Below, one piece after another: positions 6,486-29,796 of a stretch of DNA of 64,000 nt (positions within the stretch are counted from its first letter, which is position 1; the number at the start of each line of letters is the position of its first letter). Source of the DNA: Dipylidium caninum. Its lineage: Eukaryota > Platyhelminthes > Cestoda > Cyclophyllidea > Dipylidiidae. Under the pieces are notes generated by a model. That model worked only from the letters and a program-made list of their open reading frames with translations. It did not search any database and was not told the DNA's origin. The DNA lies in contig QEYB01000654.1 of the NCBI GenBank assembly GCA_017562135.1, forward strand, positions 682,001-746,000, in the 5' to 3' direction. Position numbers and translations under genes: made by a program.

Positions 6486-9400
6486 ATGAAGCGTGACGGT
6501 CGCGAGTTCGACAGTGAAGTCCCTCCTAAAAAAATGCAGAAAGGGGATACTTCGAACATATGCGTAAGGTTTTTGATACCAGCTCGTGCTGCCGGGTTAA
6601 TTATCGGCAAGGGCGGTGAAAACATAAAGAGGATTCGCACCCAGGTTACTATCTCTTTTTTCTTTTACTTCGAGGAGTATTGTTGAAATTCCACTGCGCT
6701 CTAAGTGACGACTGGTTCCTAACATGTGTTATTATTTTTCGTTTCTTTTACGCTTCCACGTTATCCTTGACGTCACGACCTCGCATTTCCTTGAAAACAC
6801 GCAAATTTCTGGCCTCGAACTCCACGTCTAATGAACATGTTTACGTTTACCCTTGGTTTGCTTATTGCGTCTCACTAACGCATCATGTAACTCTTGGGTA
6901 ACGTCGACTCGGCGATTTTTTTCACTGTTTGCAGTTCTCAGTGAGACTGAATATCCCCGACACGAGGGGCATTGAACGGTAGGACACGGACTGGATGTCG
7001 TTTTTTCCCTCCTCATTCTCATTCCACCCTTATTGTTTTTTTATCATCGATTTTTTTTAAGCAGCTGCCTAGTTCCACCAAAATTAACCTGCATGCTCTC
7101 TAGGACGGTTTCAAACATGTCGGGCTTTAAATAATTTGGAATAGAAATATTGCAACGGCAGCTGCGGCTTTGGTCGCTCTTTATTTCCGTCTCATTGTTG
7201 AAATGTATGATTTTTTATATAGTGTCTTCACGGTTGAAGGCGCCCTGGGGGATATATGCAACGTGTGGCGAGACATAATGCCGAAGCTGAAGGTGAGGGA
7301 TTCACTCCTGGAAAACAGATTTTGTAGGATGTGATGAATGCAAAACTTTCTGACCCGAAGGTGATCATGGGTCATCAACGTTTCCCACGACGTAGACAGC
7401 AAAGAAACCAAGGCGGCGAGGGAGATCAGCAGGAAAGTGAAGAAATAGAAGAGGATGAAAAAATGGTAGACTTGAGGATTCTGGTACACCAAAGCATAGC
7501 CGGTTGCATTATTGGTAAGGGCGGTGAGAGAATTCGCGAACTGCGGCAGAAGTACCAAATGCGAGTGATTAAGGTGTATCAGATGCTGGCACCTTGCTCT
7601 ACGGATCGTGTGGTACAACTGATTGCGGAACCTGAAAATGCGGTCCAATGCATGGAGGCAATTGTGGAGGTTGCTGAAGTGAGTTCACTTCTGCCTCGTG
7701 TTACGATGGCACCTACCGAGCTGGACCTTTTCCTTCATTAGTGCAATCGTAGAGCTGGCCACTCATCTTAGTTACGCTTGGCCAATATAAGATGATGCTA
7801 TAGCTTTCCTCTTTCCGAAAGCTGATCACATGGACGTTCCTGGGCCCTTGCCCTCTAGTACTAGTTTGAAAATTAGGAGGCATAAATGGCATTTCTTAAA
7901 GTTAATACTTCCACTTACCTACTTTTGCATGCCACGCATTTGTGTGTCGTTGCCATTCACTTGTTGCAATCCTGTGCGTGCCCTACTTGCTCATTTTTAT
8001 GTCGAGTAACTTGGTTAAGTGGAAATTTACTGGGGACCATATCGTAATCGTTGTCTTTCTGATTGATTTTTTTGTTTATCACCCAATATCACTTTAGGCA
8101 TGCATCAGTGTTGGGAAAAAATAGACTGGTCTTGGTGCTATCTAAATGCTCTGTCCACTCACCATAAATGCCTTTGTCATCTTTCCTCGCTGAATTTATT
8201 TATGTAAAATCTGTGAGAGCCCGGATCTTTGCCAAGCCTGATCGGGTGGTGGGTCACGAGGCATGGATAACTCCATTCACTAATAACTGAGGCATTGATT
8301 CCGATCTGGTTGTTCGAGTATGTTTTGTTTGAGGTATGTATCGAATAATGCTTATTTACTCAGAATACTACAATCCGCGGACCTACTGAACTCTATGACG
8401 CGTCGAACTGTAGTGAGGCAGATGCACTGACTTATGGTGGGTGGCTATCCCCGGAGAGGCTTCAGGCTCTTTCCCAAGGTATGCCGATAGGTGGAGGTGG
8501 AAGTGTTACCACTCCTACACCCGTGATGGGTCCAGGTGGCGGAGGTAATCGGTATGGTGGTGGACCACCTCGCGGTGCCATTCCCCCTCCTCATCCACCG
8601 CCACCACCACCACCACCAGCTATGTACCTTGGACGCCAACAGCCAATACAACAGCAGCAGTTGCCCCAACGAGGCTTCGGGGGACCTCAGATGTACCAGC
8701 AGCCGCCGCCCCCACCACCGTCACAGTTTCCGCCTCGCGGCCTCCCACCCAGGCAACAGCACCAGTGGGGTTACCCTGACGGTTTTGGTGAAGCTGGTGT
8801 TGGTGGTGGTTATCCTGGCTATCCGCAACAGCAGTCGCAACAACCGCAAGCGCCGCCTATGCCAGTGGCTCCCCCTGTTCAACAGTCTTCAGTCGTCGGC
8901 GTTGGAGGTGTAAATGTCGGTGGCTATGATAACGCCGGCCTTTATGTACAGCCTCCCCACAGCACGGGGTACAATGTGCCGCCGCCTCAAGTTACTGCTG
9001 GGTAAGTGACTAGGGGGACCAGAACCGCAAGACCTTGCATTTTTCTGCTTGAAAGGGCAAATTTAGTTTTTTTTGAAGCCTCACGTTTGATTTGTGTGAA
9101 ATTTAGGGACTATCTTATCCAATTGTCTGTTACTTCCCCTTATATTATGTGGGGGTGTCCGGATATGCTTTCCTGATGAAGTTTGTCGGCTTAAACATGT
9201 TTAAGTTCGGTAAGATGCATCCATTCCGGTCTAATTAGATGTTAAAGAGTGTCAAGTCGTGTCCATATTCGTTGCTTGTTTTCTCAGCTTATTCGGTACT
9301 TTCCGTGGTTAGTTTATGCAATGTTTAACAACCTATTAAGGCTTTTTACGGTTGGCTAAGATCGTTACCTACCAGTTGTAGGTTTCAGTCAACTGAAAAA

Positions 9401-13913: not shown

Positions 13914-14465
13914 GTTTAAATCTTTAAAAATCTCCACCCCCACCCCCGGCTAACGCGTTAAACCATTTCAAATAATTGAATATTCAAATGGGTTTTGGCA
14001 GTTGTTAATAAAATCGTGAAAGCAGCGAAATAATCTTTATTTTCCGCTAATTTATTTGGTAAACCGCGAATATAAATTGAAAAGAAATCAAAATCAGCTT
14101 CAGCAGATGGAACGCAAATACCAAACGGAGAAAACCAAAGGAGTTTGGGCGGCCCACATTGTTGCGCGGGCGCAGCGGGCATCCAAACCGACTCTCGCAC
14201 GCACGCACGCACGCACTCATTGCCTGGTCTCAACCCGGTGGAACACCTGCAGGACAAAGGCGTGGTCGGGACGACCTGGCTCACACAACAGACGACTAGA
14301 CTGGACTAGGCTCGACTAAATCATTTTGGAGTAGACATGGGTAGAATAGATTAAATTACATCATAAATAGACACTTAACGCGGTGGGGAACAGGGCAATG
14401 GAGATGGCAACGAAAGGAAGGTAAGGTAAGGGCAAGGAAGTGGAGGCGAGGGAGGAGAATAGAGG

Positions 14466-14506
14466 AGAGCTGAGCTGAGCTGAGCTGAGCGGAGCGGAGC
14501 GGAGCG
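14466..14506 (+). repeat. GCTGA/GCGGA pentamer microsatellite (unit 1)
   Basis: Tandem GCTGA units pass into GCGGA units. The tract recurs at the same place in every unit with a varying number of copies, for example 16721-16757 and 18907-18948. Confidence 0.9.
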
Positions 14507-14560
14507 CTGTCGGCGAACTGACTCACTCCCGAACATGCCTTAACCTCGAGTGGGTCAGTG

Positions 14561-14589
14561 CAGGGCAGGGCAGGGCAGGGCAGGGCAGG
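14561..14589 (+). repeat. CAGGG pentamer microsatellite (unit 1)
   Basis: About six CAGGG units. The same tract appears in all units, longest around 21182-21219 and 23395-23432. Confidence 0.9.
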
Positions 14590-14683
14590 CGGCATGCGAG
14601 CTGAGGGGAGAGAAATGAAGGAGATATTAATGGCGATGATGCTGTTGATGGCCTCGGTAGGAAGATGGGCTGCCTCGCAAACC

Positions 14684-14755
14684 AGGTTCCACCGAGATTT
14701 GAACTCGGGTCGCAGGATTCAGAGTCCTGAGTGCTAACCACTACACCATGGAACC
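14684..14755 (-). tRNA. tRNA-Gln(CTG), unit 1
   Basis: A 72-nt cloverleaf with anticodon loop CTCTGAA, box A TGGTGTAGTGG and box B GAGTTCAAATC. The acceptor stem GGTTCCA pairs with TGGAACC. No run of four T follows within over 300 bp; only TTT occurs just after the gene. Confidence 0.96.
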
Positions 14756-14783
14756 GACGCGCGCCGCGTCCAGTGCCCCACTC

Positions 14784-14888
14784 CGCCTCGCCTCGCCTCG
14801 CCTCGCCTCGCCTCGCCTCGCCTCGCCTCGTCGCCTCGCCTCGCTCGCCTCGCCTCGCCTCGCCTCGCCTCGCCTCGTCGCCTCGCCC
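14784..14888 (+). repeat. CCTCG pentamer microsatellite (unit 1)
   Basis: CCTCG units with two GTCG interruptions and one shorter break. It is the longest version in the array; units 2-7 carry uninterrupted tracts of about 35-65 bp at the same place, between the Gln and Ile tRNA genes. Confidence 0.9.
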
Positions 14889-14949
14889 ATCCGACGTGTG
14901 TGGAGTCTGGGGACGGACGGTCAAATAGCCCGGGGCTGTAAGAAAACCC

Positions 14950-15023
14950 TGCCCCTGGAGAGGCTCGAACTCTCGACCTCCGCATTATAAGTACGGCGCT
15001 CTATCCGACTAAGCTACAGGGAC
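14950..15023 (-). tRNA. tRNA-Ile(TAT), unit 1
   Basis: A 74-nt intronless cloverleaf with anticodon loop CTTATAA, which would read AUA codons. Copy 1 has T instead of C at acceptor position 2, leaving a T-G wobble against G71; the other copies have a C-G pair here. A TTTT terminator follows three bases after the 3' end. Confidence 0.95.
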
Positions 15024-15151
15024 CACCACCCACCGCCACGTCGTCGCGCGGCATGTCACATTGCTGGCTGATGGGTGACGGGAGGCTGGAGAATGTGGGC
15101 TGGAGGCTGGAGGCTGGAGGCTGGAGGCTGGTGGTGGAGGGCGTGTTGGGT

Positions 15152-15224
15152 GCCGCAGTGGCGCAATGGATAGCGCGTCTGGTTTCTACCCAGAAGGTTG
15201 TGGGTTCGAGTCCCACCTGCGGTA
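15152..15224 (+). tRNA. tRNA-Arg(TCT), unit 1
   Basis: A 73-nt intronless cloverleaf with anticodon loop TTTCTAC, box A TGGCGCAATGG and box B GGTTCGAGTCC. It would read AGA codons. It is divergent from the Ile gene 128 bp away. There is no TTTT before the convergent Trp gene over 500 bp downstream. Confidence 0.96.
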
Positions 15225-15731
15225 GGCTGCGGCGGGCTGCGGTCTGCGGGCGGGTGGTGGGTGAGGCTGGAGCGGCGGACCGGTCAACGCTGGTCGCTGA
15301 CGCGGTCTCGAATTTGGTCTCGGTCTATTGTTGCCCACGTCCAACGTCCGCGAGTGGCCAGGAGGCCAGGCGGCCAGTAGGTGGGGTGGGTATCTCTTCG
15401 GGGGAGCGGGCGCGTCTTGGCCCCGGGCTGTTTCATCGCCTCCATCGCCTCCTGCTCGGTCGTCGCCTCCTCCTCACTGATTGTTGAGCTCAGGGACACA
15501 CTTCCACTTGGCATGAATGCCTTACGTCGGGGTATCCTCCCCATCGTCCATCTTGCTCCCGATTCCTGTCACTGTCTGCACTGCCCTATTGCAGCCGACA
15601 TGGAGACGCAGTCGACCGGTTGGTCAGTCGCGACGCGGAGCTGACGGCGTCGGTGAAGGTGAATGTGACCGTGTGTGGATGTGTGCCCGTGGCGGCGAGC
15701 GGCGAGTAGGGAAAACGGGCGGCAGTACCAC

Positions 15732-15803
15732 TGACCCCGACGTGATTTGAACACGCAACCTTCTGATCTGGAGTCAGACGCGCTACCGTTGCGCCACGGA
15801 GTC
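15732..15803 (-). tRNA. tRNA-Trp(CCA), unit 1
   Basis: A 72-nt cloverleaf with anticodon loop CTCCAGA and very close agreement with animal nuclear tRNA-Trp. A TTTT terminator lies 16 bases after the 3' end (AAAA at 15712-15715 on the + strand). Confidence 0.97.
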
Positions 15804-16123
15804 ACCCGCTGTGCGTCCTCATCTCTCCACTCTCCTCTCTCGTCCATCTCCACAGCCCGTGGCTGCAGCTGCGACGCCTCCCGCGACAGCGGCAGTAGCA
15901 GAAGCAGCAGCAGCAGCATGTGGCGGAGGGGTGTGTTGTCAGCCACGGCGGCGGCGGCCTGAGTGGCATTCGCTGTGATCGGGGGGAGAAGTGCGTCCTC
16001 CTGTGCACTCACGTCGACGCGCTGTCCTATGGCCAAATGGGGTGGGCGTGGAGCCCGAGGACAACTTGCATTTGGTCCACGGGGAGTGGAGGGGTGGGCG
16101 GGGCGAACGAGGCAGAAGCGCGT

Positions 16124-16194
16124 GCGCCGGTGGTTCAGTGGTAGAATGCTCGCCTGCCACGCGGGCGGCCCGGGTTCGATTCCCGGCCGGCGCA
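16124..16194 (+). tRNA. tRNA-Gly(GCC), unit 1
   Basis: A 71-nt cloverleaf with anticodon loop TGCCACG and a GC-rich acceptor (GCGCCGG with CCGGCGC). The first TTTT downstream is at 16304-16307, 109 bases away. Confidence 0.97.
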
Positions 16195-16933
16195 CCTCTG
16201 TTGTTGCAACTCTGCCTCCTCTACTCTCCTTTCCTCTCCTCTCATCTCCACTCTTCTCTTCTCTTCTCATCTACTCTACACGCCTCTCCTGCATCCCTCG
16301 TGCTTTTCGCCTCCCCGCTCGCATGCTCCAGAGGTCCCAGGCCTTAGCAATATTTTGTCGTCGCGTCTCCTTCCGGGACAGACTCGGGCGGCACCGCCAG
16401 CCCCACCATGTTGAACGTGCGCACCGGGCAACCAAAGAGACGCTCGCTCGCTCGCACGCATGCACGCACTCATTGCCTGGTCTCAACCCGGTGGAACACC
16501 TGCAGGACAAAGGCGTGGTCGGGACGACCTGGCTCACACAACAGACGACTAGACTGGACTAGGCTCGACTAAATCATTTTGGAGTAGACATGGGTAGAAT
16601 AGATTAAATTACATCATAAATAGACACTTAACGCGGTGGGAACAGGGCAATGGAGATGGCAACGAAAGGAAGGTAAGGTAAGGGCAAGGAAGTGGAGGCG
16701 AGGGAGGAGAATAGAGGAGAGCTGAGCTGAGCTGAGCTGAGCGGAGCGGAGCGGAGCGCTGTCGGCGAACTGACTCACTCCCGAACATGCCTTAACCTCG
16801 AGTGGGTCAGTGCAGGGCAGGGCAGGGCAGGGCAGGGCGGGGCATGCGAGCTGAGGGGAGAGAAATGAAGGAGATATTAATGGCGATGATGCTGTTGATG
16901 GCCTCGGTAGGAAGATGGGCTGCCTCGCAAACC

Positions 16934-17005
16934 AGGTTCCACCGAGATTTGAACTCGGGTCGCAGGATTCAGAGTCCTGAGTGCTAACCACTACACCATG
17001 GAACC
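16934..17005 (-). tRNA. tRNA-Gln(CTG), unit 2
   Basis: Identical to the unit 1 copy at 14684-14755. Confidence 0.96.
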
Positions 17006-17135
17006 GACGCGCGCCGCGTCCAGTGCCCACTCCGCCTCGCCTCGCCTCGCCTCGCCTCGCCTCGCCTCGCCTCGCATCGACGTGTGTGGAGTCTGGGGAC
17101 GGACGGTCAAATAGCCCGGGGCTGTAAGAAAACCC

Positions 17136-17209
17136 TGCCCCTGGAGAGGCTCGAACTCTCGACCTCCGCATTATAAGTACGGCGCTCTATCCGACTAAGC
17201 TACAGGGGC
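17136..17209 (-). tRNA. tRNA-Ile(TAT), unit 2
   Basis: Has the full GCCCCTG acceptor strand, paired with CAGGGGC, and TTTT three bases after its end. Confidence 0.96.
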
Positions 17210-17330
17210 CACCACCCACCGCCACGTCGTCGCGCGGCATGTCACATTGCTGGCTGATGGGTGACGGGAGGCTGGAGAATGTGGGCTGGAGGCTGGAGGC
17301 TGGAGGCTGGTGGTGGAGGGCGTGTTGGGT

Positions 17331-17403
17331 GCCGCAGTGGCGCAATGGATAGCGCGTCTGGTTTCTACCCAGAAGGTTGTGGGTTCGAGTCCCACCTGCG
17401 GTA
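17331..17403 (+). tRNA. tRNA-Arg(TCT), unit 2
   Basis: Same sequence as 15152-15224. Confidence 0.96.
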
Positions 17404-17917
17404 GGCTGCGGCGGGCTGCGGTCTGCGGGCGGGTGGTGGGTGAGGCTGGAGCGGCGGACCGGTCAACGCTGGTCGCTGACGCGGTCTCGAATTTGGTCTC
17501 GGTCTATTGTTGCCCACGTCCAACGTCCGCGAGGTGGCCAGGAGGCCAGGCGGCCAGTAGGTGGGTGGGTTGGGTATCTCTTCGGGGGAGGCGGGCGCGT
17601 CTTGGCCCCCGGGCTGTTTCATCGCCTCCATCGCCTCCTGCTCGGTCGTCGCCTCCTCCTCACTGATTGTTGAGCTCAGGGACACACTTCCACTTGGCAT
17701 GAATGCCTTACGTCGGGGTATCCTCCCCATCGTCCATCTTGCTCCCGATTCCTGTCACTGTCTGCACTGCCCTATTGCAGCCGACATGGAGACGCAGTCG
17801 ACCGGTTGGTCAGTCGCGACGCGGAGCTGACGGCGTCGGTGAAGGTGAATGTGACCGTGTGTGGATGTGTGCCCGTGGCGGCGAGCGGCGAGTAGGGAAA
17901 ACGGGCGGCAGTACCAC

Positions 17918-17989
17918 TGACCCCGACGTGATTTGAACACGCAACCTTCTGATCTGGAGTCAGACGCGCTACCGTTGCGCCACGGAGTC
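17918..17989 (-). tRNA. tRNA-Trp(CCA), unit 2
   Basis: Same sequence as 15732-15803, with the same nearby TTTT. Confidence 0.97.
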
Positions 17990-18308
17990 ACCCGCTGTGC
18001 GTCCTCATCTCTCCACTCTCCTCTCTCGTCCATCTCCACAGCCCGTGGCTGCAGCTGCGACGCCTCCCGCGACAGCGGCAGTAAGCAGAAGCAGCAGCAG
18101 CAGCATGTGGCGGAGGGGTGTGTTGTCAGCCACGGCGGCGGCGGCCTGAGTGGCATTCGCTGTGATCGGGGGAGAAGTGCGTCCTCCTGTGCACTCACGT
18201 CGACGCGCTGTCCTATGGCCAAATGGGGTGGGCGTGGAGCCCGAGGACACTTGCATTTGGTCCACGGGGAGTGGAGGGGTGGGCGGGGCGAACGAGGCAG
18301 AAGCGCGT

Positions 18309-18379
18309 GCGCCGGTGGTTCAGTGGTAGAATGCTCGCCTGCCACGCGGGCGGCCCGGGTTCGATTCCCGGCCGGCGCA
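18309..18379 (+). tRNA. tRNA-Gly(GCC), unit 2
   Basis: Same sequence as 16124-16194. Confidence 0.97.
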
Positions 18380-19124
18380 CCTCTGTTGTTGCAACTCTGC
18401 CTCCTCTACTCTCCTTTCCTCTCCTCTCATCTCCACTCTTCTCTTCTCTTCTCATCTACTCTACACGCCTCTCCTGCATCCCTCGTGCTTTTCGCCTCCC
18501 CGCTCGCATGCTCCAGAGGTCCCAGGCCTTAGCAATATTTTGTCGTCGCGTCTCCTTCCGGGACAGACTCGGGCGGCACCGCCAGCCCCACCATGTTGAA
18601 CGTGCGCACCGGGCAACCAAAGAGACGCTCGCTCGCTCGCACGCATGCACGCACTCATTGCCTGGTCTCAACCCGGTGGAACACCTGCAGGACAAAGGCG
18701 TGGTCGGGACGACCTGGCTCACACAACAGACGACTAGACTGGACTAGGCTCGACTAAATCATTTTGGAGTAGACATGGGTAGAATAGATTAAATTACATC
18801 ATAAATAGACACTTAACGCGGTGGGGAACAGGGCAATGGAGATGGCAACGAAAGGAAGGTAAGGTAAGGGCAAGGAAGTGGAGGCGAGGGAGGAGAATAG
18901 AGGAGAGCTGAGCTGAGCTGAGCTGAGCTGAGCGGAGCGGAGCGGAGCGCTGTCGGCGAACTGACTCACTCCCGAACATGCCTTAACCTCGAGTGGGTCA
19001 GTGCAGGGCAGGGCAGGGCAGGGCAGGGCGGGGCATGCGAGCTGAGGGGAGAGAAATGAAGGAGATATTAATGGCGATGATGCTGTTGATGGCCTCGGTA
19101 GGAAGATGGGCTGCCTCGCAAACC

Positions 19125-19196
19125 AGGTTCCACCGAGATTTGAACTCGGGTCGCAGGATTCAGAGTCCTGAGTGCTAACCACTACACCATGGAACC
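19125..19196 (-). tRNA. tRNA-Gln(CTG), unit 3
   Basis: Unchanged copy of the 14684-14755 gene. Confidence 0.96.
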
Positions 19197-19328
19197 GACG
19201 CGCGCCGCGTCCAGTGCCCACTCCGCCTCGCCTCGCCTCGCCTCGCCTCGCCTCGCCTCGCCTCGCCATCCGACGTGTGTGGAGTCTGGGGACGGACGGT
19301 CAAATAGCCCGGGGCTGTAAGAAAACCC

Positions 19329-19402
19329 TGCCCCTGGAGAGGCTCGAACTCTCGACCTCCGCATTATAAGTACGGCGCTCTATCCGACTAAGCTACAGGG
19401 GC
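19329..19402 (-). tRNA. tRNA-Ile(TAT), unit 3
   Basis: Unchanged copy of the unit 2 gene at 17136-17209. Confidence 0.96.
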
Positions 19403-19514
19403 CACCACCCACCGCCACGTCGTCGCGCGGCAATGTCACATTGCTGGCTGATGGGTGACGGGAGGCTGGAGAATGTGGGCTGGAGGCTGGAGGCTGGTGG
19501 AGGGCGTGTTGGGT

Positions 19515-19587
19515 GCCGCAGTGGCGCAATGGATAGCGCGTCTGGTTTCTACCCAGAAGGTTGTGGGTTCGAGTCCCACCTGCGGTA
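19515..19587 (+). tRNA. tRNA-Arg(TCT), unit 3
   Basis: Unchanged copy of the 15152-15224 gene. Confidence 0.96.
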
Positions 19588-20097
19588 GGCTGCGGCGGGC
19601 TGCGGTCTGCGGGCGGGTGGTGGGTGAGGCTGGAGCGGCGGACCGGTCAACGCTGGTCGCTGACGCGGTCTCGAATTTGGTCTCGGTCTATTGTTGCCCA
19701 CGTCCAACGTCCGCGAGGTGGCCAGGAGGCCAGGCGGCCAGTAGGTGGGATGGGTATCTCTTCGGGGAGGCGGGCGCGTCTTGGCCCCCGGGCTGTTTCA
19801 TCGCCTCCATCGCCTCCTGCTCGGTCGTCGCCTCCTCCTCACTGATTGTTTGAGCTCAGGGACACACTTCCACTTGGCATGAATGCCTTACGTCGGGGTA
19901 TCCTCCCCATCGTCCATCTTGCTCCCGATTCCTGTCACTGTCTGCACTGCCCTATTGCAGCCGACATGGAGACGCAGTCGACCGGTTGGTCAGTCGCGAC
20001 GCGGAGCTGACGGCGTCGGTGAAGGTGAATGTGACCGTGTGTGGATGTGTGCCCGTGGCGGCGAGCGGCGAGTAGGGAAAACGGGCGGCAGTACCAC

Positions 20098-20170
20098 TGA
20101 CCCCGACGTGATTTGAACACGCAACCTTTCTGATCTGGAGTCAGACGCGCTACCGTTGCGCCACGGAGTC
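20098..20170 (-). tRNA. tRNA-Trp(CCA), unit 3, one-base insertion
   Basis: The only Trp copy with an extra base: one added A at the junction of the anticodon stem and variable loop makes it 73 nt. The fold can absorb it as a six-base variable loop, so it may still work. A homopolymer sequencing error is also possible. Confidence 0.85.
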
Positions 20171-20488
20171 ACCCGCTGTGCGTCCTCATCTCTCCACTCT
20201 CCTCTCTCGTCCATCTCCACAGCCCGTGGCTGCAGCTGCGACGCCTCCCGCGACAGCGGCAGTAGCAGAAGCAGCAGCAGCAGCATGTGGCGGAGGGGTG
20301 TGTTGTCAGCCACGGCGGCGGCGGCTGAGTGGCATTCGCTGTGATCGGGGGGAGAAGTGCGTCCTCCTGTGCACTCACGTCGACGCGCTGTCCTATGGCC
20401 AAATGGGGTGGGCGTGGAGCCCGAGGACACTTGCATTTGGTCCACGGGGAGTGGAGGGGTGGGCGGGGCGAACGAGGCAGAAGCGCGT

Positions 20489-20559
20489 GCGCCGGTGGTT
20501 CAGTGGTAGAATGCTCGCCTGCCACGCGGGCGGCCCGGGTTCGATTCCCGGCCGGCGCA
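20489..20559 (+). tRNA. tRNA-Gly(GCC), unit 3
   Basis: Unchanged copy of the 16124-16194 gene. Confidence 0.97.
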
Positions 20560-21314
20560 CCTCTGTTGTTGCAACTCTGCCTCCTCTACTCTCCTTTCCT
20601 CTCCTCTCATCTCCACTCTTCTCTTCTCTTCTCATCTACTCTACACGCCTCTCCTGCATCCCTCGTGCTTTTCGCCTCCCCGCTCGCATGCTCCAGAGGT
20701 CCCAGGCCTTAGCAATATTTTGTCGTCGCGTCTCCTTCCGGGACAGACTCGGGCGGCACCGCCAGCCCCACCATGTTGAACGTGCGCACCGGGCAACCAA
20801 AGAGACGCTCGCTCGCTCGCACGCATGCACGCACTCATTGCCTGGTCTCAACCCGGTGGAACACCTGCAGGACAAAGGCGTGGTCGGGACGACCTGGCTC
20901 ACACAACAGACGACTAGACTGGACTAGGCTCGACTAAATCATTTTGGAGTAGACATGGGTAGAATAGATTAAATTACATCATAAATAGACACTCCACGCG
21001 GTGGGGAACAGGGCAATGGAGATGGCAACGAAAGGAAGGTAAGGTAAGGGCAAGGAAGTGGAGGCGAGGGAGGAGAATAGAGGAGAGCTGAGCTGAGCTG
21101 AGCTGAGCTGAGCGGAGCGGAGCGGAGCGCTGTCGGCGAACTGACTCACTCCCGAACATGCCTTAACCTCGAGTGGGTCAGTGCAGGGCAGGGCAGGGCA
21201 GGGCAGGGCAGGGCAGGGCGGGGCATGCGAGCTGAGGGGAGAGAAATGAAGGAGATATTAATGGCGATGATGCTGTTGATGGCCTCGGTAGGAAGATGGG
21301 CTGCCTCGCAAACC

Positions 21315-21386
21315 AGGTTCCACCGAGATTTGAACTCGGGTCGCAGGATTCAGAGTCCTGAGTGCTAACCACTACACCATGGAACC
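21315..21386 (-). tRNA. tRNA-Gln(CTG), unit 4
   Basis: Sequence as in unit 1. Confidence 0.96.
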
Positions 21387-21541
21387 GACGCGCGCCGCGT
21401 CCAGTGCCCCACTCCGCCTCGCCTCGCCTCGCCTCGCCTCGCCTCGCCTCGCCTCGCCTCGCCTCGCCTCGCCTCGCCATCCGACGTGTGTGGAGTCTGG
21501 GGACGGACGGTCAAAATAGCCCGGGGCTGTAAGAAAAACCC

Positions 21542-21616
21542 TGCCCCTGGAGAGGCTCGAACTCTCGACCTCCGCATTATAAGTACGGGCGCTCTATCCG
21601 ACTAAGCTACAGGGGC
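21542..21616 (-). tRNA. tRNA-Ile(TAT), unit 4, one-base insertion
   Basis: One extra C between the D stem and the anticodon stem makes this copy 75 nt, which would put a bulge at position 26. The flanks of this copy also show single-base A-run differences, so sequencing error cannot be excluded. Confidence 0.82.
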
Positions 21617-21727
21617 CACCACCCACCGCCACGTCGTCGCGCGGCATGTCACATTGCTGGCTGATGGGTGACGGGAGGCTGGAGAATGTGGGGCTGGAGG
21701 CTGGTGGTGGTGGAGGGCGTGTTGGGT

Positions 21728-21800
21728 GCCGCAGTGGCGCAATGGATAGCGCGTCTGGTTTCTACCCAGAAGGTTGTGGGTTCGAGTCCCACCTGCGGTA
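21728..21800 (+). tRNA. tRNA-Arg(TCT), unit 4
   Basis: Sequence as in unit 1. Confidence 0.96.
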
Positions 21801-22310
21801 GGCTGCGGCGGGCTGCGGTCTGCGGGCGGGTGGTGGGTGAGGCTGGAGCGGCGGACCGGTCAACGCTGGTCGCTGACGCGGTCTCGAATTTGGTCTCGGT
21901 CTATTGTTGCCCACGTCCAACGTCCGCGAGGTGGCCAGGAGGCCAGGCGGCCAGTAGGTGGGATGGGTATCTCTTCGGGGGAGGCGGGCGCGTCTTGGCC
22001 CCCGGGCTGTTTCATCGCCTCCATCGCCTCCTGCTCGGTCGTCGCCTCCTCCTCACTGATTGTTGAGCTCAGGGACACACTTCCACTTGGCATGAATGCC
22101 TTACGTCGGGGTATCCTCCCCATCGTCCATCTTGCTCCCGATTCCTGTCACTGTCTGCACTGCCCTATTGCAGCCGACATGGAGACGCAGTCGACCGGTT
22201 GGTCAGTCGCGACGCGGAGCTGACGGCGTCGGTGAAGGTGAATGTGACCGTGTGTGGATGTGTGCCCGTGGCGGCGAGCGGCGAGTAGGGAAAACGGGCG
22301 GCAGTACCAC

Positions 22311-22382
22311 TGACCCCGACGTGATTTGAACACGCAACCTTCTGATCTGGAGTCAGACGCGCTACCGTTGCGCCACGGAGTC
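22311..22382 (-). tRNA. tRNA-Trp(CCA), unit 4
   Basis: Sequence as in unit 1. Confidence 0.97.
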
Positions 22383-22701
22383 ACCCGCTGTGCGTCCTCA
22401 TCTCTCCACTCTCCTCTCTCGTCCATCTCCACAGCCCGTGGCTGCAGCTGCGACGCCTCCCGCGACAGCGGCAGTAGCAGAAGCAGCAGCAGCAGCATGT
22501 GGCGGAGGGGTGTGTTGTCAGCCACGGCGGCGGCGGCCTGAGTGGCATTCGCTGTGATCGGGGGGAGAAGTGCGTCCTCCTGTGCACTCACGTCGACGCG
22601 CTGTCCTATGGCCAAATGGGGTGGGCGTGGAGCCCGAGGACACTTGCATTTGGTCCACGGGGAGTGGAGGGGTGGGCGGGGCGAACGAGGCAGAAGCGCG
22701 T

Positions 22702-22772
22702 GCGCCGGTGGTTCAGTGGTAGAATGCTCGCCTGCCACGCGGGCGGCCCGGGTTCGATTCCCGGCCGGCGCA
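22702..22772 (+). tRNA. tRNA-Gly(GCC), unit 4
   Basis: Sequence as in unit 1. Confidence 0.97.
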
Positions 22773-23518
22773 CCTCTGTTGTTGCAACTCTGCCTCCTCT
22801 ACTCTCCTTTCCTCTCCTCTCATCTCCACTCTTTCTCTTCTCTTCTCATCTACTCTACACGCCTCTCCTGCATCCCTCGTGCTTTTCGCCTCCCCGCTCG
22901 CATGCTCCAGAGGTCCCAGGCCTTAGCAATATTTTGTCGTCGCGTCTCCTTCCGGGACAGACTCGGGCGGCACCGCCAGCCCCACCATGTTGAACGTGCG
23001 CACCGGGCAACCAAAGAGACGCTCGCTCGCTCGCACGCATGCACGCACTCATTGCCTGGTCTCAACCCGGTGGAACACCTGCAGGACAAAGGCGTGGTCG
23101 GGACGACCTGGCTCACACAACAGACGACTAGACTGGACTAGGCTCGACTAAATCATTTTGGAGTAGACATGGGTAGAATAGATTAAATTACATCATAAAT
23201 AGACTCTCCAACGCGGTGGGGAACAGGGCAATGGAGATGGCAACGAAAGGAAGGTAAGGTAAGGGCAAGGAAGTGGAGGCGAGGGAGGAGAATAGAGGAG
23301 AGCTGAGCTGAGCTGAGCTGAGCGGAGCGGAGCGGAGCGCTGTCGGCGAACTGACTCACTCCCGAACATGCCTTAACCTCGAGTGGGTCAGTGCAGGGCA
23401 GGGCAGGGCAGGGCAGGGCAGGGCAGGGCAGGGGCTGAGGGGGAGAGAAATGAAGGAGATATTAATGGCGATGATGCTGTTGATGGCCTCGGTAGGAAGA
23501 TGGGCTGCCTCGCAAACC

Positions 23519-23590
23519 AGGTTCCACCGAGATTTGAACTCGGGTCGCAGGATTCAGAGTCCTGAGTGCTAACCACTACACCATGGAACC
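23519..23590 (-). tRNA. tRNA-Gln(CTG), unit 5
   Basis: No change from unit 1. Confidence 0.96.
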
Positions 23591-23734
23591 GACGCGCGCC
23601 GCGTCCAGTGCCCCACTCCGCCTCGCCTCGCCTCGCCTCGCCTCGCCTCGCCTCGCCTCGCCTCGCCTCGCCATCCGACGTGTGTGGAGTCTGGGGACGG
23701 ACGGGTCAAATAGCCCGGGGCTGTAAGAAAACCC

Positions 23735-23808
23735 TGCCCCTGGAGAGGCTCGAACTCTCGACCTCCGCATTATAAGTACGGCGCTCTATCCGACTAAGCT
23801 ACAGGGGC
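23735..23808 (-). tRNA. tRNA-Ile(TAT), unit 5
   Basis: No change from unit 2. Confidence 0.96.
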
Positions 23809-23916
23809 CACCACCCACCGCCACGTCGTCGCGCGGCATGTCACATTGCTGGCTGATGGGTGACGGGAGGCTGGAGAATGTGCGGCTGGAGGCTGGTGGT
23901 GGAGGGCGTGTTGGGT

Positions 23917-23989
23917 GCCGCAGTGGCGCAATGGATAGCGCGTCTGGTTTCTACCCAGAAGGTTGTGGGTTCGAGTCCCACCTGCGGTA
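23917..23989 (+). tRNA. tRNA-Arg(TCT), unit 5
   Basis: No change from unit 1. Confidence 0.96.
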
Positions 23990-24495
23990 GGCTGCGGGCT
24001 GCGGTCTGCGGCGGGTGGTGGGTGAGGCTGGAGCGGCGGACCGGTCAACGCTGGTCGCTGACGCGGTCTCGAATTTGGTCTCGGTCTATTGTTGCCACGT
24101 CCAACGTCCGCGAGGTGGCCAGGAGGCCAGGCGGCCAGTAGGTGGGATGGGTATCTCTTCGGGGGAGGCGGGCGCGTCTTGGCCCCCGGGCTGTTTCATC
24201 GCCTCCATCGCCTCCTGCTCGGTCGTCGCCTCCTCCTCACTGATTGTTGAGCTCAGGGACACACTTCCACTTGGCATGAATGCCTTACGTCGGGGTATCC
24301 TCCCCATCGTCCATCTTGCTCCCGATTCCTGTCACTGTCTGCACTGCCCTATTGCAGCCGACATGGAGACGCAGTCGACCGGTTGGTCAGTCGCGACGCG
24401 GAGCTGACGGCGTCGGTGAAGGTGAATGTGACCGTGTGTGGGATGTGTGCCCGTGGCGGCGAGCGGCGAGTAGGGAAAACGGGCGGCAGTACCAC

Positions 24496-24567
24496 TGACC
24501 CCGACGTGATTTGAACACGCAACCTTCTGATCTGGAGTCAGACGCGCTACCGTTGCGCCACGGAGTC
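24496..24567 (-). tRNA. tRNA-Trp(CCA), unit 5
   Basis: No change from unit 1. Confidence 0.97.
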
Positions 24568-24885
24568 ACCCGCTGTGCGTCCTCATCTCTCCACTCTCCT
24601 CTCTCGTCCATCTCCACAGCCCGTGGCTGCAGCTGCGACGCCTCCCGCGACAGCGGCAGTAGCAGAAGCAGCAGCAGCAGCATGTGGCGGAGGGGTGTGT
24701 TGTCAGCCACGGCGGCGGCGGCCTGAGTGGCATTCGCTGTGATCGGGGGGAGAAGTGCGTCCTCCTGTGCACTCACGTCGACGCGCTGTCCTATGGCCAA
24801 ATGGGGTGGGCGTGGAGCCGAGGACACTTGCATTTGGTCCACGGGGAGTGGAGGGGTGGGCGGGGCGAACGAGGCAGAAGCGCGT

Positions 24886-24956
24886 GCGCCGGTGGTTCAG
24901 TGGTAGAATGCTCGCCTGCCACGCGGGCGGCCCGGGTTCGATTCCCGGCCGGCGCA
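24886..24956 (+). tRNA. tRNA-Gly(GCC), unit 5
   Basis: No change from unit 1. Confidence 0.97.
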
Positions 24957-25709
24957 CCTCTGTTGTTGCAACTCTGCCTCCTCTACTCTCCTTTCCTCTC
25001 CTCTCATCTCCACTCTTCTCTTCTCTTCTCATCTACTCTACACGCCTCTCCTGCATCCCTCGTGCTTTTCGCCTCCCCGCTCGCATGCTCCAGAGGTCCC
25101 AGGCCTTAGCAATATTTGTCGTCGCGTCTCCTTCCGGGACAGACTCGGGCGGCACCGCCAGCCCCACCATGTTGAACGTGCGCACCGGGCAACCAAAGAG
25201 ACGCTCGCTCGCTCGCAACGCATGCACGCACTCATTGCCTGGTCTCAACCCGGTGGAACACCTGCAGGACAAAGGCGTGGTCGGGACGACCTGGCTCACA
25301 CAACAGACGACTAGACTGGACTAGGCTCGACTAAATCATTTTGGAGTAGACATGGGTAGAATAGATTAAATTACATCATAAAATAGACTCTTAACGCGGT
25401 GGGGAACAGGGCAATGGAGATGGCAACGAAAGGAAGGTAAGGTAAGGGCAAGGAAGTGGAGGCGAGGGAGGAGAATAGAGGAGAGCTGAGCTGAGCTGAG
25501 CTGAGCTGAGCGGAGCGGAGCGGAGCGCTGTCGGCGAACTGACTCACTCCCGAACATGCCTTAACCTCGAGTGGGTCAGTGCAGGGCAGGGCAGGGCAGG
25601 GCAGGGCAGGGCAGGGGCATGCGAGCTGAGGGGAGAGAAATGAAGGAGATATTAATGGCGATGATGCTGTTGATGGCCTCGGTAGGGAAGATGGGCTGCC
25701 TCGCAAACC

Positions 25710-25781
25710 AGGTTCCACCGAGATTTGAACTCGGGTCGCAGGATTCAGAGTCCTGAGTGCTAACCACTACACCATGGAACC
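25710..25781 (-). tRNA. tRNA-Gln(CTG), unit 6
   Basis: Matches unit 1 exactly. Confidence 0.96.
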
Positions 25782-25914
25782 GACGCGCGCCGCGTCCAGT
25801 GCCCCACTCCGCCTCGCCTCGCCTCGCCTCGCCTCGCCTCGCCTCGCCTCGCCATCCGACGTGTGTGGAGTCTGGGGACGGACGGTCAAATAGCCCGGGG
25901 CTGTAAGAAAACCC

Positions 25915-25988
25915 TGCCCCTGGAGAGGCTCGAACTCTCGACCTCCGCATTATAAGTACGGCGCTCTATCCGACTAAGCTACAGGGGC
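25915..25988 (-). tRNA. tRNA-Ile(TAT), unit 6
   Basis: Matches unit 2 exactly. Confidence 0.96.
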
Positions 25989-26095
25989 CACCACCCACCG
26001 CCACGTCGTCGCGCGGCATGTCACATTGCTGGCTGATGGGTGACGGGAGGCTGGAGAATGTGGGCTGGAGGCTGGTGGTGGAGGGCGTGTTGGGT

Positions 26096-26168
26096 GCCGC
26101 AGTGGCGCAATGGATAGCGCGTCTGGTTTCTACCCAGAAGGTTGTGGGTTCGAGTCCCACCTGCGGTA
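26096..26168 (+). tRNA. tRNA-Arg(TCT), unit 6
   Basis: Matches unit 1 exactly. Confidence 0.96.
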
Positions 26169-26683
26169 GGCTGCGGCGGGCTGCGGTCTGCGGGCGGGTG
26201 GTGGGTGAGGCTGGAGCGGCGGACCGGTCAACGCTGGTCGCTGACGCGGTCTCGAATTTGGTCTCGGTCTATTGTTGCCCACGTCCAACGTCCGCGAGGT
26301 GGCCAGGAGGCCAGGCGGCCAGTAGGTGGGGGGTATCTCTTCGGGGGAGGCGGGCGCGTCTTGGCCCCCGGGGGCTGTTTCATCGCCTCCATCGCCTCCT
26401 GCTCGGTCGTCGCCTCCTCCTCACTGATTGTTGAGCTCAGGGACACACTTCCCTTCCACTTGGCATGAATGCCTTACGTCGGGGTATCCTCCCCATCGTC
26501 CATCTTGCTCCCGATTCCTGTCACTGTCTGCACTGCCCTATTGCAGCCGACATGGAGACGCAGTCGACCGGTTGGTCAGTCGCGACGCGGAGCTGACGGC
26601 GTCGGTGAAGGTGAATGTGACCGTGTGTGGATGTGTGCCCGTGGCGGCGAGCGGCGAGTAGGGAAAACGGGCGGCAGTACCAC

Positions 26684-26755
26684 TGACCCCGACGTGATTT
26701 GAACACGCAACCTTCTGATCTGGAGTCAGACGCGCTACCGTTGCGCCACGGAGTC
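26684..26755 (-). tRNA. tRNA-Trp(CCA), unit 6
   Basis: Matches unit 1 exactly. Confidence 0.97.
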
Positions 26756-27073
26756 ACCCGCTGTGCGTCCTCATCTCTCCACTCTCCTCTCTCGTCCATC
26801 TCCACAGCCCGTGGCTGCAGCTGCGACGCCTCCCGCGACAGCGGCAGTAGCAGAAGCAGCAGCAGCAGCATGTGGCGGAGGGGTGTGTTGTCAGCCACGG
26901 CGGCGGCGGCTGAGTGGCATTCGCTGTGATCGGGGGGAGAAGTGCGTCCTCCTGTGCACTCACGTCGACGCGCTGTCCTATGGCCAAATGGGGTGGACGT
27001 GGAGCCCGAGGACACTTGCATTTGGTCCACGGGGAGTGGAGGGGTGGGCGGGGCGAACGAGGCAGAAGCGCGT

Positions 27074-27144
27074 GCGCCGGTGGTTCAGTGGTAGAATGCT
27101 CGCCTGCCACGCGGGCGGCCCGGGTTCGATTCCCGGCCGGCGCA
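27074..27144 (+). tRNA. tRNA-Gly(GCC), unit 6
   Basis: Matches unit 1 exactly. Confidence 0.97.
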
Positions 27145-27873
27145 CCTCTGTTGTTGCAACTCTGCCTCCTCTACCTCCTTTCCCTCTCCTCTCATCTCCA
27201 CTCTTCTCTTCTCTTCTCATCTACTCTACACGCCTCTCCTGCATCCCTCGTGCTTTTTCGCCTCCCTGTTCCGCTATGCTCCAGAGGTCCCAGGCCTTAG
27301 CAATATTTTGTCGTCGCGTCTCCTTCCGGGACAGGACTCGGGCGGCACCGCCAGCCCCACCATGTTGAACGTGCGCACCGGGCAACCAAAGAGACGCTCG
27401 CTCGCTCGCACGCATGCACGCACTCATTGCCTGGTCTCAACCCAGTGGGACACCCGCAGGACAAAGGCGTGGTCGGGACGACCTGGCTCACACTAGACTA
27501 GACGGCTAGACTAGACTAGACTGAATTATATTGAAGTAGACTTGGGTAGAATAGATTAAATTACATCATAAATAGGCACTCTCCACGCGGTGGGAACGGG
27601 CAATGGGATGGCAACGAAAGGAAGGTAAGGTAAGGGCAAGGAAGTGGAGGCGAGGAGGAAAGAGGAGAGCTGAGAGCTGAGCTGAAGCGGAGCGGAGCGG
27701 AGCGCTGTCGAACTGACTCACTCCCGAACATGCCTTAACCTCGAGTGGGTCAGCAGGGCAGGGCAGGGCAGGGCAGGGCAGGGCGGGGAGGGGAGGGGAG
27801 AGAAACGAAGGAGATATTAATGGCGATGATGCTCTTGATGGCCTCGACAGGAAGATGGGCTGCCTCGCAAACC

Positions 27874-27945
27874 AGGTTCCACCGAGATTTGAACTCGGGT
27901 CGCAGGATTCAGAGTCCTGAGTGCTAACCACTACACCATGGAACC
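27874..27945 (-). tRNA. tRNA-Gln(CTG), unit 7
   Basis: Intact and unchanged although the sequence around it has diverged, for example GACAGG for GGTAGG upstream on the + strand. Confidence 0.96.
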
Positions 27946-28090
27946 GGCACTCGCCATATCCAGTGCCTCGCCTCGCCTCGCCTCGCCTCGCCTCGCCTCG
28001 CCTCGCCTCGCCTCGCCGTCCGACGTGTGTGGAGTCTGTGGACGGAGGGTGGGGGGGAGGGACACATAGCCCGGGGCTGGAAGAAAACCC

Positions 28091-28164
28091 TGCCCCTGGA
28101 GAGGCTCGAACTCTCGACCTCCGCATTATAAGTACGGCGCTCTATCCGACTAAGCTACAGGGGC
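28091..28164 (-). tRNA. tRNA-Ile(TAT), unit 7
   Basis: Intact. The adjacent TTTT is kept, while the spacer beyond it carries a new run of G. Confidence 0.96.
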
Positions 28165-28278
28165 CACCGCCGATCGTCTCGCCGTGGCGTGACGTGTCAC
28201 ATTGCTCGGTGATGCCTGGTGGCGGGTTGCGGGTTGCGGGTTGCGGGCTGGTGGTTGGTGGTGGAGAGAGTGCCGGGT

Positions 28279-28351
28279 GCCGCAGTGGCGCAATGGATAG
28301 CGCGTCTGGTTTCTACCCAGAAGGTTGTGGGTTCGAGTCCCACCTGCGGTA
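28279..28351 (+). tRNA. tRNA-Arg(TCT), unit 7
   Basis: Intact. The spacer after it is shortened by deletions. Confidence 0.96.
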
Positions 28352-28789
28352 GGCGCGAGGGCCGGCGGGTGGTGGGTGAGGCCGGAGCGGCGGACCGGCA
28401 ACGTGGTCGCTGTCTCGAATTTGGTCTCGTGTTGCCGCGGTCTCGGAGGCCAGGCGGAGTAGTGGTCTTTCGGGGGAGGCGGGCGCGTCTGGGGGCTTTC
28501 ATCACCTCCTCGCTCCTGGGGCTCGGTCGTCGCCTCCTCCTCACTGATTGTTGATGAGCTCGAGGGACACACTTCCACTTGGCATGAATGCCTTACGTCG
28601 AAGTTTCCTCTCCATCGTCCATCCTGCTCCCGATGCCTGTCACTGTCTGCACTGCCCTATTACAGCCGACAAGTTGACGCAGTCGACTACGCGGAGCTGA
28701 CGGCGGCGATGAAGGTGTATATGTGACCGTGTGTGGGTGTGTGTCCGTGGCGGCGAGCGGCGAGGAGGGAAAACGGGTGGCAGCACCAC

Positions 28790-28861
28790 TGACCCCGACG
28801 TGATTTGAACACGCAACCTTCTGATCTGGAGTCAGACGCGCTACCGTTGCGCCACGGAGTC
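28790..28861 (-). tRNA. tRNA-Trp(CCA), unit 7
   Basis: Intact, with the downstream TTTT preserved. Confidence 0.97.
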
Positions 28862-29188
28862 ACCCGTCGTCTCCTCTCCTCTCTCCGTTCTCCACTCTCG
28901 TCTCTCGTCTTTCGCCACGCCCCGTGGCTGCCACAGCGGCAGCAGCAGCACTCGCAGACTGCCACGTGGTGGGCACGCGGCGGAGGGGTGTGTTGTAAGA
29001 CACGGTGGCGGCTTGAGTGGCATTCGCTGTGGTCGGGTGGAGAAGTGCGTCCCCCTGTGCACTGACGTCGACGCGCTGTCCTGTGGCCGAATGGGGTGGA
29101 CGTGGAGGCCGAGGACAACTGCAGGTGGTCGAGTCGGGGAATGGAGCGGAGGAAGGGGAGTGGAGAGGCGGAGGATGCGGGAACGCGT

Positions 29189-29259
29189 GCGCCGGTGGTT
29201 CAGTGGTAGAATGCTCGCCTGCCACGCGGGCGGCCCGGGTTCGATTCCCGGCCGGCGCA
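29189..29259 (+). tRNA. tRNA-Gly(GCC), unit 7
   Basis: Intact. It is the last tRNA gene of the array; the distant TTTT is kept as GATTTTCG. Confidence 0.97.
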
Positions 29260-29796
29260 CCTCTATTGCACCTCTGCCTCCCCTCCCCTCCCCTCCCCTC
29301 CTCTCTCCACTCTTCTCCCTTCTTTCTCTTCTCATCTCATCTCCTTTTTCACGCCTCTTCTCCATCCCTCGTGATTTTCGCCTCCCTGTCCGCCTAGCTG
29401 CAGAGGCCCCAGCCCTTAGCCCTATTTCGTCCTCGTGTCTCCTCCCGGGACGGACTCGGGCGGCTCCGCCCGCCCCACCATGTTGACCGTGCGCACCGGG
29501 CACCAAAGAGACGCTCGCGACCTCGCTCACACGCAGACGCAGACTCATTGAAGTAGGACCTGGTCTCAACCCGGTGGAACACCTGCAGGACAAAGGCGTG
29601 AGTCGGACGACCTGGACACAACAGACGAAGACTGGACTAGGCCAGAGCTAAATCATTTTGGAGTAGATTTTATCATGGGTAGAATAGATTAAATTAATCA
29701 TAAATAGACTCTCCACGCGGTTTGGCACAGTGTAATTTAAGGGAAAATACGTGGTCGTGTCTTCTACTGCTTAACACTCAACTTCACTTTTCTCAG

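Follow-up and report, generated by a model that had tools for sequence, protein, structure and literature searches.

The window analyzed here, a 64,000-nucleotide stretch of Dipylidium caninum DNA (assembly GCA_017562135.1, contig QEYB01000654.1, positions 682,001 to 746,000; the contig is referred to below as C56), contains a tandem array of tRNA genes at C56:696184-711761. A first-pass annotation had proposed seven tandem units at 14191..29720 carrying 35 genes of five types, and ARAGORN, Rfam, and self-alignment all bore this out. Exactly 35 tRNA genes were called by ARAGORN, seven of each named type (Gln-CTG, Ile-TAT, Arg-TCT, Trp-CCA, and Gly-GCC), all of them within 14684-29261 and none elsewhere in the window. 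Every one of the 35 exceeded the Rfam gathering score for tRNA (61.3 to 71.7 bits compared to a cut-off of 29), and the scan of the window at that score returned 35 matches, all tRNA, with no match to another RNA family. Chance is not an issue as the source of the array. Self-alignment of the units showed the proposed limits to be right to about 20 bases, and alignment of one unit to the window gave seven full units of ∼2.2 kb spanning 14209-29535 (Table 1). The units run head to tail as had been claimed, with the refinement that the genes inside a unit are divided between the two strands (Gln, Ile, and Trp on the minus strand and Arg and Gly on the plus strand). Because its genes occupy both strands, the unit cannot be a single transcript.

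The Gln, Arg, and Gly genes were identical in all seven units, the Trp gene in six, and the Ile gene in five; the deviant copies amounted to two single-base insertions and one substitution. Pairwise substitutions among units 1 to 6 were 0.09% in the tRNA genes and only 0.62% in the spacers, a difference small enough to support the earlier suggestion that the five genes were amplified as a block. Unit 7, at the right edge, differed from units 1 to 6 by 15.5% in the spacers and 0.05% in the tRNA genes. A homogenized interior, a diverged edge, and conserved genes are what would be left by concerted evolution with purifying selection. Short tandem repeats were present in the spacers: the longest perfect CGCCT run had 9, 8, 8, 12, 10, 8, and 9 copies in units 1 to 7, respectively, and runs of GAGCT, CAGGG, GGAGGCT, and CTCCT were found in other spacers. 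The copy numbers of CGCCT, CAGGG, GAGCT, and GGAGGCT differed among the units.

These features bear on the possibility that the array is a functionless amplification of the short interspersed element (SINE) type or of pseudogenes. In favor of this possibility, the genome of Schistosoma mansoni contains many tRNA pseudogenes as well as >1,000 SINE copies derived from tRNA (PMC2770079). However, the hallmark of such amplification is degenerate, dispersed copies of one tRNA type, and the copies found here are intact, arrayed, and of mixed types. The genes score 61 to 72 bits, those in the window show almost no decay, the spacers are much less conserved than the genes, and each unit carries several functional types rather than one amplified type. 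Thus, this explanation is scarcely credible.

Almost the whole tRNA set is found in about eleven unit types, of which the window array represents one (Table 1). All 46 of what we take to be the standard isoacceptors were located. Arrays of three or more units held 37 of them, a cluster at contig ends held 7, and the other 2 were seen as dispersed genes only (Gly-TCC, twice on C349 and once on C870, and Arg-CCG on C486). Met genes were assigned as initiator-like or elongator-like by resemblance to what we take to be the usual forms. Units carried one to six isoacceptors, or seven in the contig-end cluster, with the Tyr array alone having one, and each isoacceptor was present in about 3 to 11 near-identical copies per array. 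A Gln-CTG gene identical to that of the window also occurred in a second array, on C394. Stretches to be read were selected around search matches; of the 268 genes that ARAGORN called in them, 263 were in arrays or clusters and 5 were outside. The arrays of types 8 to 11 were read in part, with unit numbers taken from rows of search matches; C446 had one full unit and a second Phe only. The contig-end cluster (type 7) consisted of one set and a second, indel-bearing His gene on C535 and, on C265, of two pieces separated by 15 kb that lacked tRNA calls; Leu-CAG had indels in both copies. Indels are the probable cause of the odd anticodons of a few tRNA calls. At the gathering score, Rfam did not return two Met-like calls and two of the Pro-AGG calls on C44. 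The selenocysteine tRNA gene (C164:944331-944416), the sole match well over its family cut-off, lay outside any array seen.

Short spacer repeats were also present in the arrays of C549, C204, the C394 interior, C822, and C908, and none were found in the C196 stretch. In further stretches scanned with Rfam at the gathering score, the 57, 132, and 34 matches were all tRNA. No 5S rRNA was detected in the array stretches scanned; 5S rRNA genes formed tandem arrays of their own (C884, C887, C727, C643, C330, and others), with a spacing of mostly roughly 0.7 to 0.8 kb. Seven array stretches that were measured summed to about 99 kb of the 106.3-Mb assembly, and no match span in the remaining arrays was above about 20 kb; the arrays fall short of 10% of the genome.

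Searches for copies outside the arrays returned few. In the tRNA family search, 63 of 3,927 first-look candidates were scored, and all 63 lay within arrays (C56, C549, C188, C822, C746, C204, and C394). A search with Ser, Phe, Asp, and Tyr genes placed 62 of 62 matches on C196, the start of C394, C446, C908, and C770 (39 of 39 candidates scored). Array or cluster contigs also accounted for 55 of the 56 matches in another isoacceptor search (40 of 40 candidates scored), the exception being on C486, and for 42 of 45 in a further one (40 of 62 scored), the exceptions being the three Gly-TCC genes. Three further tRNA searches scored 36 of 78, 40 of 82, and 40 of 58 candidates. On the question, raised by the first-pass annotation, of whether the isoacceptors of the window are scattered elsewhere, a query with four of the five genes (21 of 21 candidates scored) revealed no intact copies of Ile-TAT, Arg-TCT, and Gly-GCC outside the array. 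Of the seven known Trp genes, however, this query recovered a single one; it also gave cross-matches to Arg-CCT. The absence of dispersed copies is well supported for some isoacceptors but not for others. Degenerate Gly-GCC relics, without an Rfam match at the gathering score, were found on C729 and C308. Upstream of both, there is some similarity to the spacer of the window unit, and they may be what is left of an earlier array or of the locus from which it arose. In addition, about 500 bases around the window-unit junction are found again on C413 and C658, where they have no tRNA calls; these two contigs share about 93% identity.

The contrast between conserved genes and variable spacers was repeated in the arrays of C204 (spacers, 4.28%; tRNA genes, 0.00%), the C394 interior (6.01% and 0.15%), and C653 (2.29% and 0.00%) and was weaker in those of C188 (2.61% and 1.27%), C822 (1.32% and 0.55%), and C549 (0.66% and 0.34%). 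Spacer differences in the C554 array were 10.0%, and its units differ in gene content; its tRNA figure of 29.47% was treated as an alignment effect because an Asn gene was called in some units and not in others. At least two of the unit types were present in two versions. C549 and C746 differed from each other by 16.5% in the spacers and 1.31% in the tRNA genes, compared to spacer differences of 0.66% and 1.28% within the respective contigs, and had a common flank on one side (6.3 kb, 295 mismatches in 6,326 columns). C188 and C822 had a common left flank (7.0 kb, 150 mismatches in 7,040 columns). The other flanks of both pairs had no match in the sides read. Gene content, order, and orientation were conserved between the partners of both pairs, and unit counts differed (nine versus six Lys-TTT genes in C188 versus C822). 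The assembly also contained two mitochondrial lineages, C637 and C471, with 86.4% identity over 3.9 kb, which suggests mixed or cryptic lineages; diverged haplotypes or lineages are probably present in the sample.

These comparisons make it very improbable that the array is an assembly artefact in which a single unit, or its reads, was strung into seven. There are 920 contigs in this fragmented assembly, several arrays are near contig ends (C535, C265, C196, the start of C394, and C554), and small contigs have indels typical of noisy long reads, all of which would fit such an artefact. However, the window units vary in their spacers, with unit 7 differing by 15.5%, and in the copy numbers of their repeats, and they are located between stretches with ordinary genes. 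Furthermore, the arrays on C56, C822, C204, and the C394 interior are bounded on both sides by stretches without ARAGORN calls, and at least two unit types (C549/C746 and C188/C822) exist as two array versions with matching flanks on one side.

The seven arrays measured had GC contents of 58 to 62% (62% for the window array), and 10 of the 14 flanks measured had 40 to 46%. Flanks with 54 to 60% were those to the right of C56, C746, and C188 (short) and to the left of C549. GC-biased gene conversion would explain such GC islands. That most arrays measured are GC islands in AT-richer sequence might also be expected if the arrays served chiefly as structural elements or chromatin boundaries and only secondarily to supply tRNA. 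There is some precedent for this, because the human 1q23.3 tRNA gene (tDNA) repeat binds CTCF and mammalian tDNA has barrier activity (PMC4041453). Nevertheless, a primarily structural role appears improbable: the roughly eleven unit types cover almost every isoacceptor, and the tRNA genes are far more conserved than the spacers, which fits selection on the tRNA. An all-against-all comparison with the tRNA genes masked revealed no spacer element common to different unit types, although a short motif could escape such a comparison. Its matches were between contigs of the same type, between pieces of the C56 unit and C413, C658, C308, and C729, and within the C308/C729 and C349 pairs; one further match of 184 bases, between C394 and C56, lay outside the arrays on both contigs.

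Runs of at least four T's within 40 nucleotides downstream, in at least one copy, were found for 40 of 70 gene-by-segment types, a count that omits C694 and the calls with odd anticodons. The frequency of such runs within 40 nucleotides of random positions was 4.8% in the window array and 13.6% in four segments. In the window, they followed the Ile and Trp genes in all units.

We consider it highly likely that the window contains a real nuclear tandem tRNA array, one of about eleven unit types, with singly transcribed genes, homogenized units, and tRNAs under selection. Each gene would be transcribed alone by RNA polymerase III from its internal promoters. Units would gain and lose copies, with unequal exchange and gene conversion keeping them alike; selection would hold the tRNA genes, spacers would drift, and edge units would escape homogenization. 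The outcome would be isoacceptor copies in a nearly fixed ratio with their unit partners, and the function may be dosage supply.

Several observations weigh against this interpretation. None of the Gln, Arg, and Gly genes in any window unit had a run of four T's within 40 nucleotides; therefore, termination at weaker T runs must be assumed. A query with the whole unit, for which 25 of 26 candidates were scored, failed to recover the array of the window itself, and the tRNA searches give lower bounds, so that isolated copies may be missed. Unit copy numbers are counts in the assembly alone, and the type 7 cluster shows one to two units and ends with contigs C265 and C535. Part of the divergence between units is probably sequencing noise, as small contigs appear to be error-rich. 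The spacers of C188 and C822 differ by 1.05%, which is below the differences within these contigs (2.61% and 1.32%); fast spacer divergence is absent in this pair and so is not general.

A more far-reaching proposal, toward which we lean with some reservation, is that about eleven coamplified modules hold nearly all cytosolic tRNA genes and fix the ratios between unrelated isoacceptors, with few or no intact dispersed copies, that frequent GC-biased conversion both keeps the arrays uniform and made the GC islands, and that this layout, which may be old in cyclophyllideans and overlooked through the collapse of short reads, is an independent animal counterpart of that in Entamoeba.

The assignment to an animal genome in the first-pass annotation was confirmed, and more narrowly to a cestode, by the mitochondrial COX1 gene and by an hnRNP K-like gene beside the array. 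The COX1 gene on C637 follows the flatworm mitochondrial code (table 9), with TGA as a sense codon (nine in the 580-codon frame, six within the Pfam match). Its 18 best-ranked matches were 82 to 87% identical, and those that were named are cestodes, including Taenia, Echinococcus, and Cylindrotaenia; identity was at most 87% among the matches listed. C637 also has a second, stop-ridden COX1 region ∼13.5 kb downstream, possibly concatenated mitochondrial DNA. The exon pieces of the hnRNP K-like gene had their best match in Echinococcus multilocularis (63% identity), followed by Anoplocephala, Mesocestoides, and Hymenolepis, and the thioredoxin-like gene to the right of the array had one match, from a trematode. 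No near-identical protein was found in searches with these three sequences. From these similarities, the window is cestode nuclear DNA.

To the right of the array, the window is GC-rich from 29700 to 60500 (about 0.48 to 0.62 in 2-kb windows), near the array level for 30 kb, with a drop to about 40% close to 60 kb. At the settings used, the region from 29.7 to 60.5 kb revealed no internal repeats of at least 60 bases. A telomeric role for the window array was not supported, its position on C56 being interior, between the hnRNP K-like and thioredoxin-like genes. No runs of three or more TTAGGG were present in the 54 sequences checked, which included a minority of the contig ends.

Table 1. Features of the window (positions within the window) and tRNA unit types of the assembly (contigs)
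Feature	Location	Strand	Length	Contents or remarks
Array unit 1	14209..16459		2251 bp	Gln-CTG, Ile-TAT, Arg-TCT, Trp-CCA, Gly-GCC; one substitution in Ile gene
Array unit 2	16460..18644		2185 bp	Same five genes as unit 1
Array unit 3	18645..20824		2180 bp	Trp gene with one additional A
Array unit 4	20825..23038		2214 bp	Ile gene with one additional C
Array unit 5	23039..25221		2183 bp	
Array unit 6	25222..27413		2192 bp	
Array unit 7	27414..29535		2122 bp	Edge unit; spacers diverged, tRNA genes almost unchanged
Partial eighth unit	29559..29736			Right end of array; 86% identity to unit positions 17-192
tRNA-Gln-CTG, unit 2 copy	16934..17005	-		ARAGORN, Rfam; also in units 1 and 3-7
tRNA-Ile-TAT, unit 2 copy	17136..17209	-		ARAGORN, Rfam; intronless
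tRNA-Arg-TCT, unit 2 copy	17330..17404	+		ARAGORN, Rfam
tRNA-Trp-CCA, unit 2 copy	17917..17990	-		ARAGORN, Rfam; intronless
tRNA-Gly-GCC, unit 2 copy	18309..18381	+		ARAGORN, Rfam
CGCCT short tandem repeat, unit 2 copy	17033..17079			Gln-Ile spacer
hnRNP K-like gene	6486..8492	+		Left of array; pieces 6486-6644, 7379-7681, 8364-8492
Thioredoxin-like gene	62177..62604	+		Right of array; pieces 62177-62374, 62440-62604
Unit type 1	C56			Gln-CTG, Ile-TAT, Arg-TCT, Trp-CCA, Gly-GCC
Unit type 2	C549, C746			Ala-TGC, Val-TAC, Thr-CGT, Ala-CGC, Leu-CAA with intron, Gly-CCC
Unit type 3	C188, C822, C694			Glu-TTC, Lys-TTT, Glu-CTC, initiator-like Met
Unit type 4	C204			Arg-ACG, Ala-AGC, Cys
Unit type 5	C394 interior			Leu-TAG, Pro-TGG, Arg-CCT, elongator-like Met, Gln-CTG, Pro-CGG
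Unit type 6	C653, C554			Leu-AAG, Asn
Unit type 7	C265, C535			His, Gln-TTG, Ile-AAT, Thr-TGT, Thr-AGT, Leu-CAG, Arg-TCG (DNA match only)
Unit type 8	C196, C394 start, C446 (matches only)			Ser-GCT, Ser-TGA, Ser-CGA, Ser-AGA, Phe
Unit type 9	C908			Asp, Lys-CTT, Val-AAC, Val-CAC
Unit type 10	C770			Tyr with intron
Unit type 11	C44			Leu-TAA, Pro-AGG

What seems to be new is an animal with almost its whole tRNA set partitioned into tandem units. A 3.18-kb multi-tRNA repeat is known in Xenopus. The question of why some lineages keep almost all of their tRNA genes in tandem arrays of mixed type is still open. An animal with an Entamoeba-like layout, in arrays that are partly interior and of moderate size, would permit tests that are hard in Entamoeba, namely, whether tRNA ratios are set by the arrays, whether the arrays serve as boundaries, or whether they are simply a consequence of recombination at genes transcribed by RNA polymerase III. 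The tRNA-linked arrays of Entamoeba histolytica reportedly serve as typing markers, and the tapeworm arrays could likewise provide fast-evolving ones. Short-read tapeworm genomes may undercount tRNA genes.

Among the open-licence papers listed in our searches, none was found to describe nuclear tRNA genes of tapeworms or other flatworms in tandem arrays. Echinococcus canadensis has 124 tRNA genes with 21 clusters of up to 6 (PMC5327563), which is near the unit sizes found here, and Taenia hydatigena has 1,223 tRNAs (PMC8384839); the available text of these two papers does not describe tandem arrays, and in that of the paper on the Hymenolepis diminuta genome, the only tRNA genes mentioned are mitochondrial (PMC6890685). 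We infer that E. canadensis and T. hydatigena have this array layout too, and the contrast with other tapeworms could be due to the collapse of arrays in older assemblies. The authors of a study on Phytophthora infestans suspected undercounts in an older assembly with collapsed repeats (PMC9584435).

Tandem arrays of several isoacceptors had been regarded in the first-pass annotation as an Entamoeba speciality, a premise that is too narrow (PMC4041453, PMC9584435, PMC2888827). Bermudez-Santana et al. state that eukaryotes have evolved large tDNA clusters on many independent occasions (PMC2888827), and tandem or clustered tRNA genes are already known in humans (PMC4041453), oomycetes (PMC9584435), and several animals (PMC2888827). 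Like the window array, the human 1q23.3 variable-number tandem repeat has five tRNA genes per GC-rich unit, on both strands, with simple repeats, and its tRNA genes are conserved with mouse when almost all else is not, a contrast similar to that between tapeworm genes and spacers (PMC4041453). However, its unit is 7.3 kb, in 9 to 43 copies, compared to 2.2 kb here, and it is one locus in a genome with >500 tRNA genes throughout, whereas nearly the whole tapeworm set is arrayed (PMC4041453). P. infestans has genome-wide tandem tRNA arrays that, as here, include units of two or three isoacceptors, but it is an oomycete with about eight thousand tRNA genes and high-copy single-isoacceptor units (PMC9584435). 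Among animals, Nematostella, zebrafish, and the clawed frog resemble the tapeworm in having mostly heterogeneous tRNA gene clusters, for which the available text does not describe a complete partition of the tRNA set into fixed units (PMC2888827).

The closest system in plan is Entamoeba, the function of whose tRNA arrays was called obscure by the authors who described them (PMC2652664). E. histolytica has 25 unit types compared to about eleven here, in short arrays of ∼3 to 11 units; some of its units include 5S rRNA, which in the tapeworm is in separate arrays; and its arrays make up >10% of the genome and have AT-rich spacers, whereas the tapeworm arrays are GC-rich (PMC2652664). Entamoeba units are almost uniform within an isolate, as are units 1 to 6 of the window, with unit 7 as an exception, and variable short tandem repeats are located between the genes in E. 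histolytica, Entamoeba dispar, and the tapeworm (PMC2652664). In both Entamoeba and the tapeworm, almost all tRNA genes are arrayed, the units mix unrelated isoacceptors, and few isoacceptors are dispersed, five of them in E. histolytica (PMC2652664).

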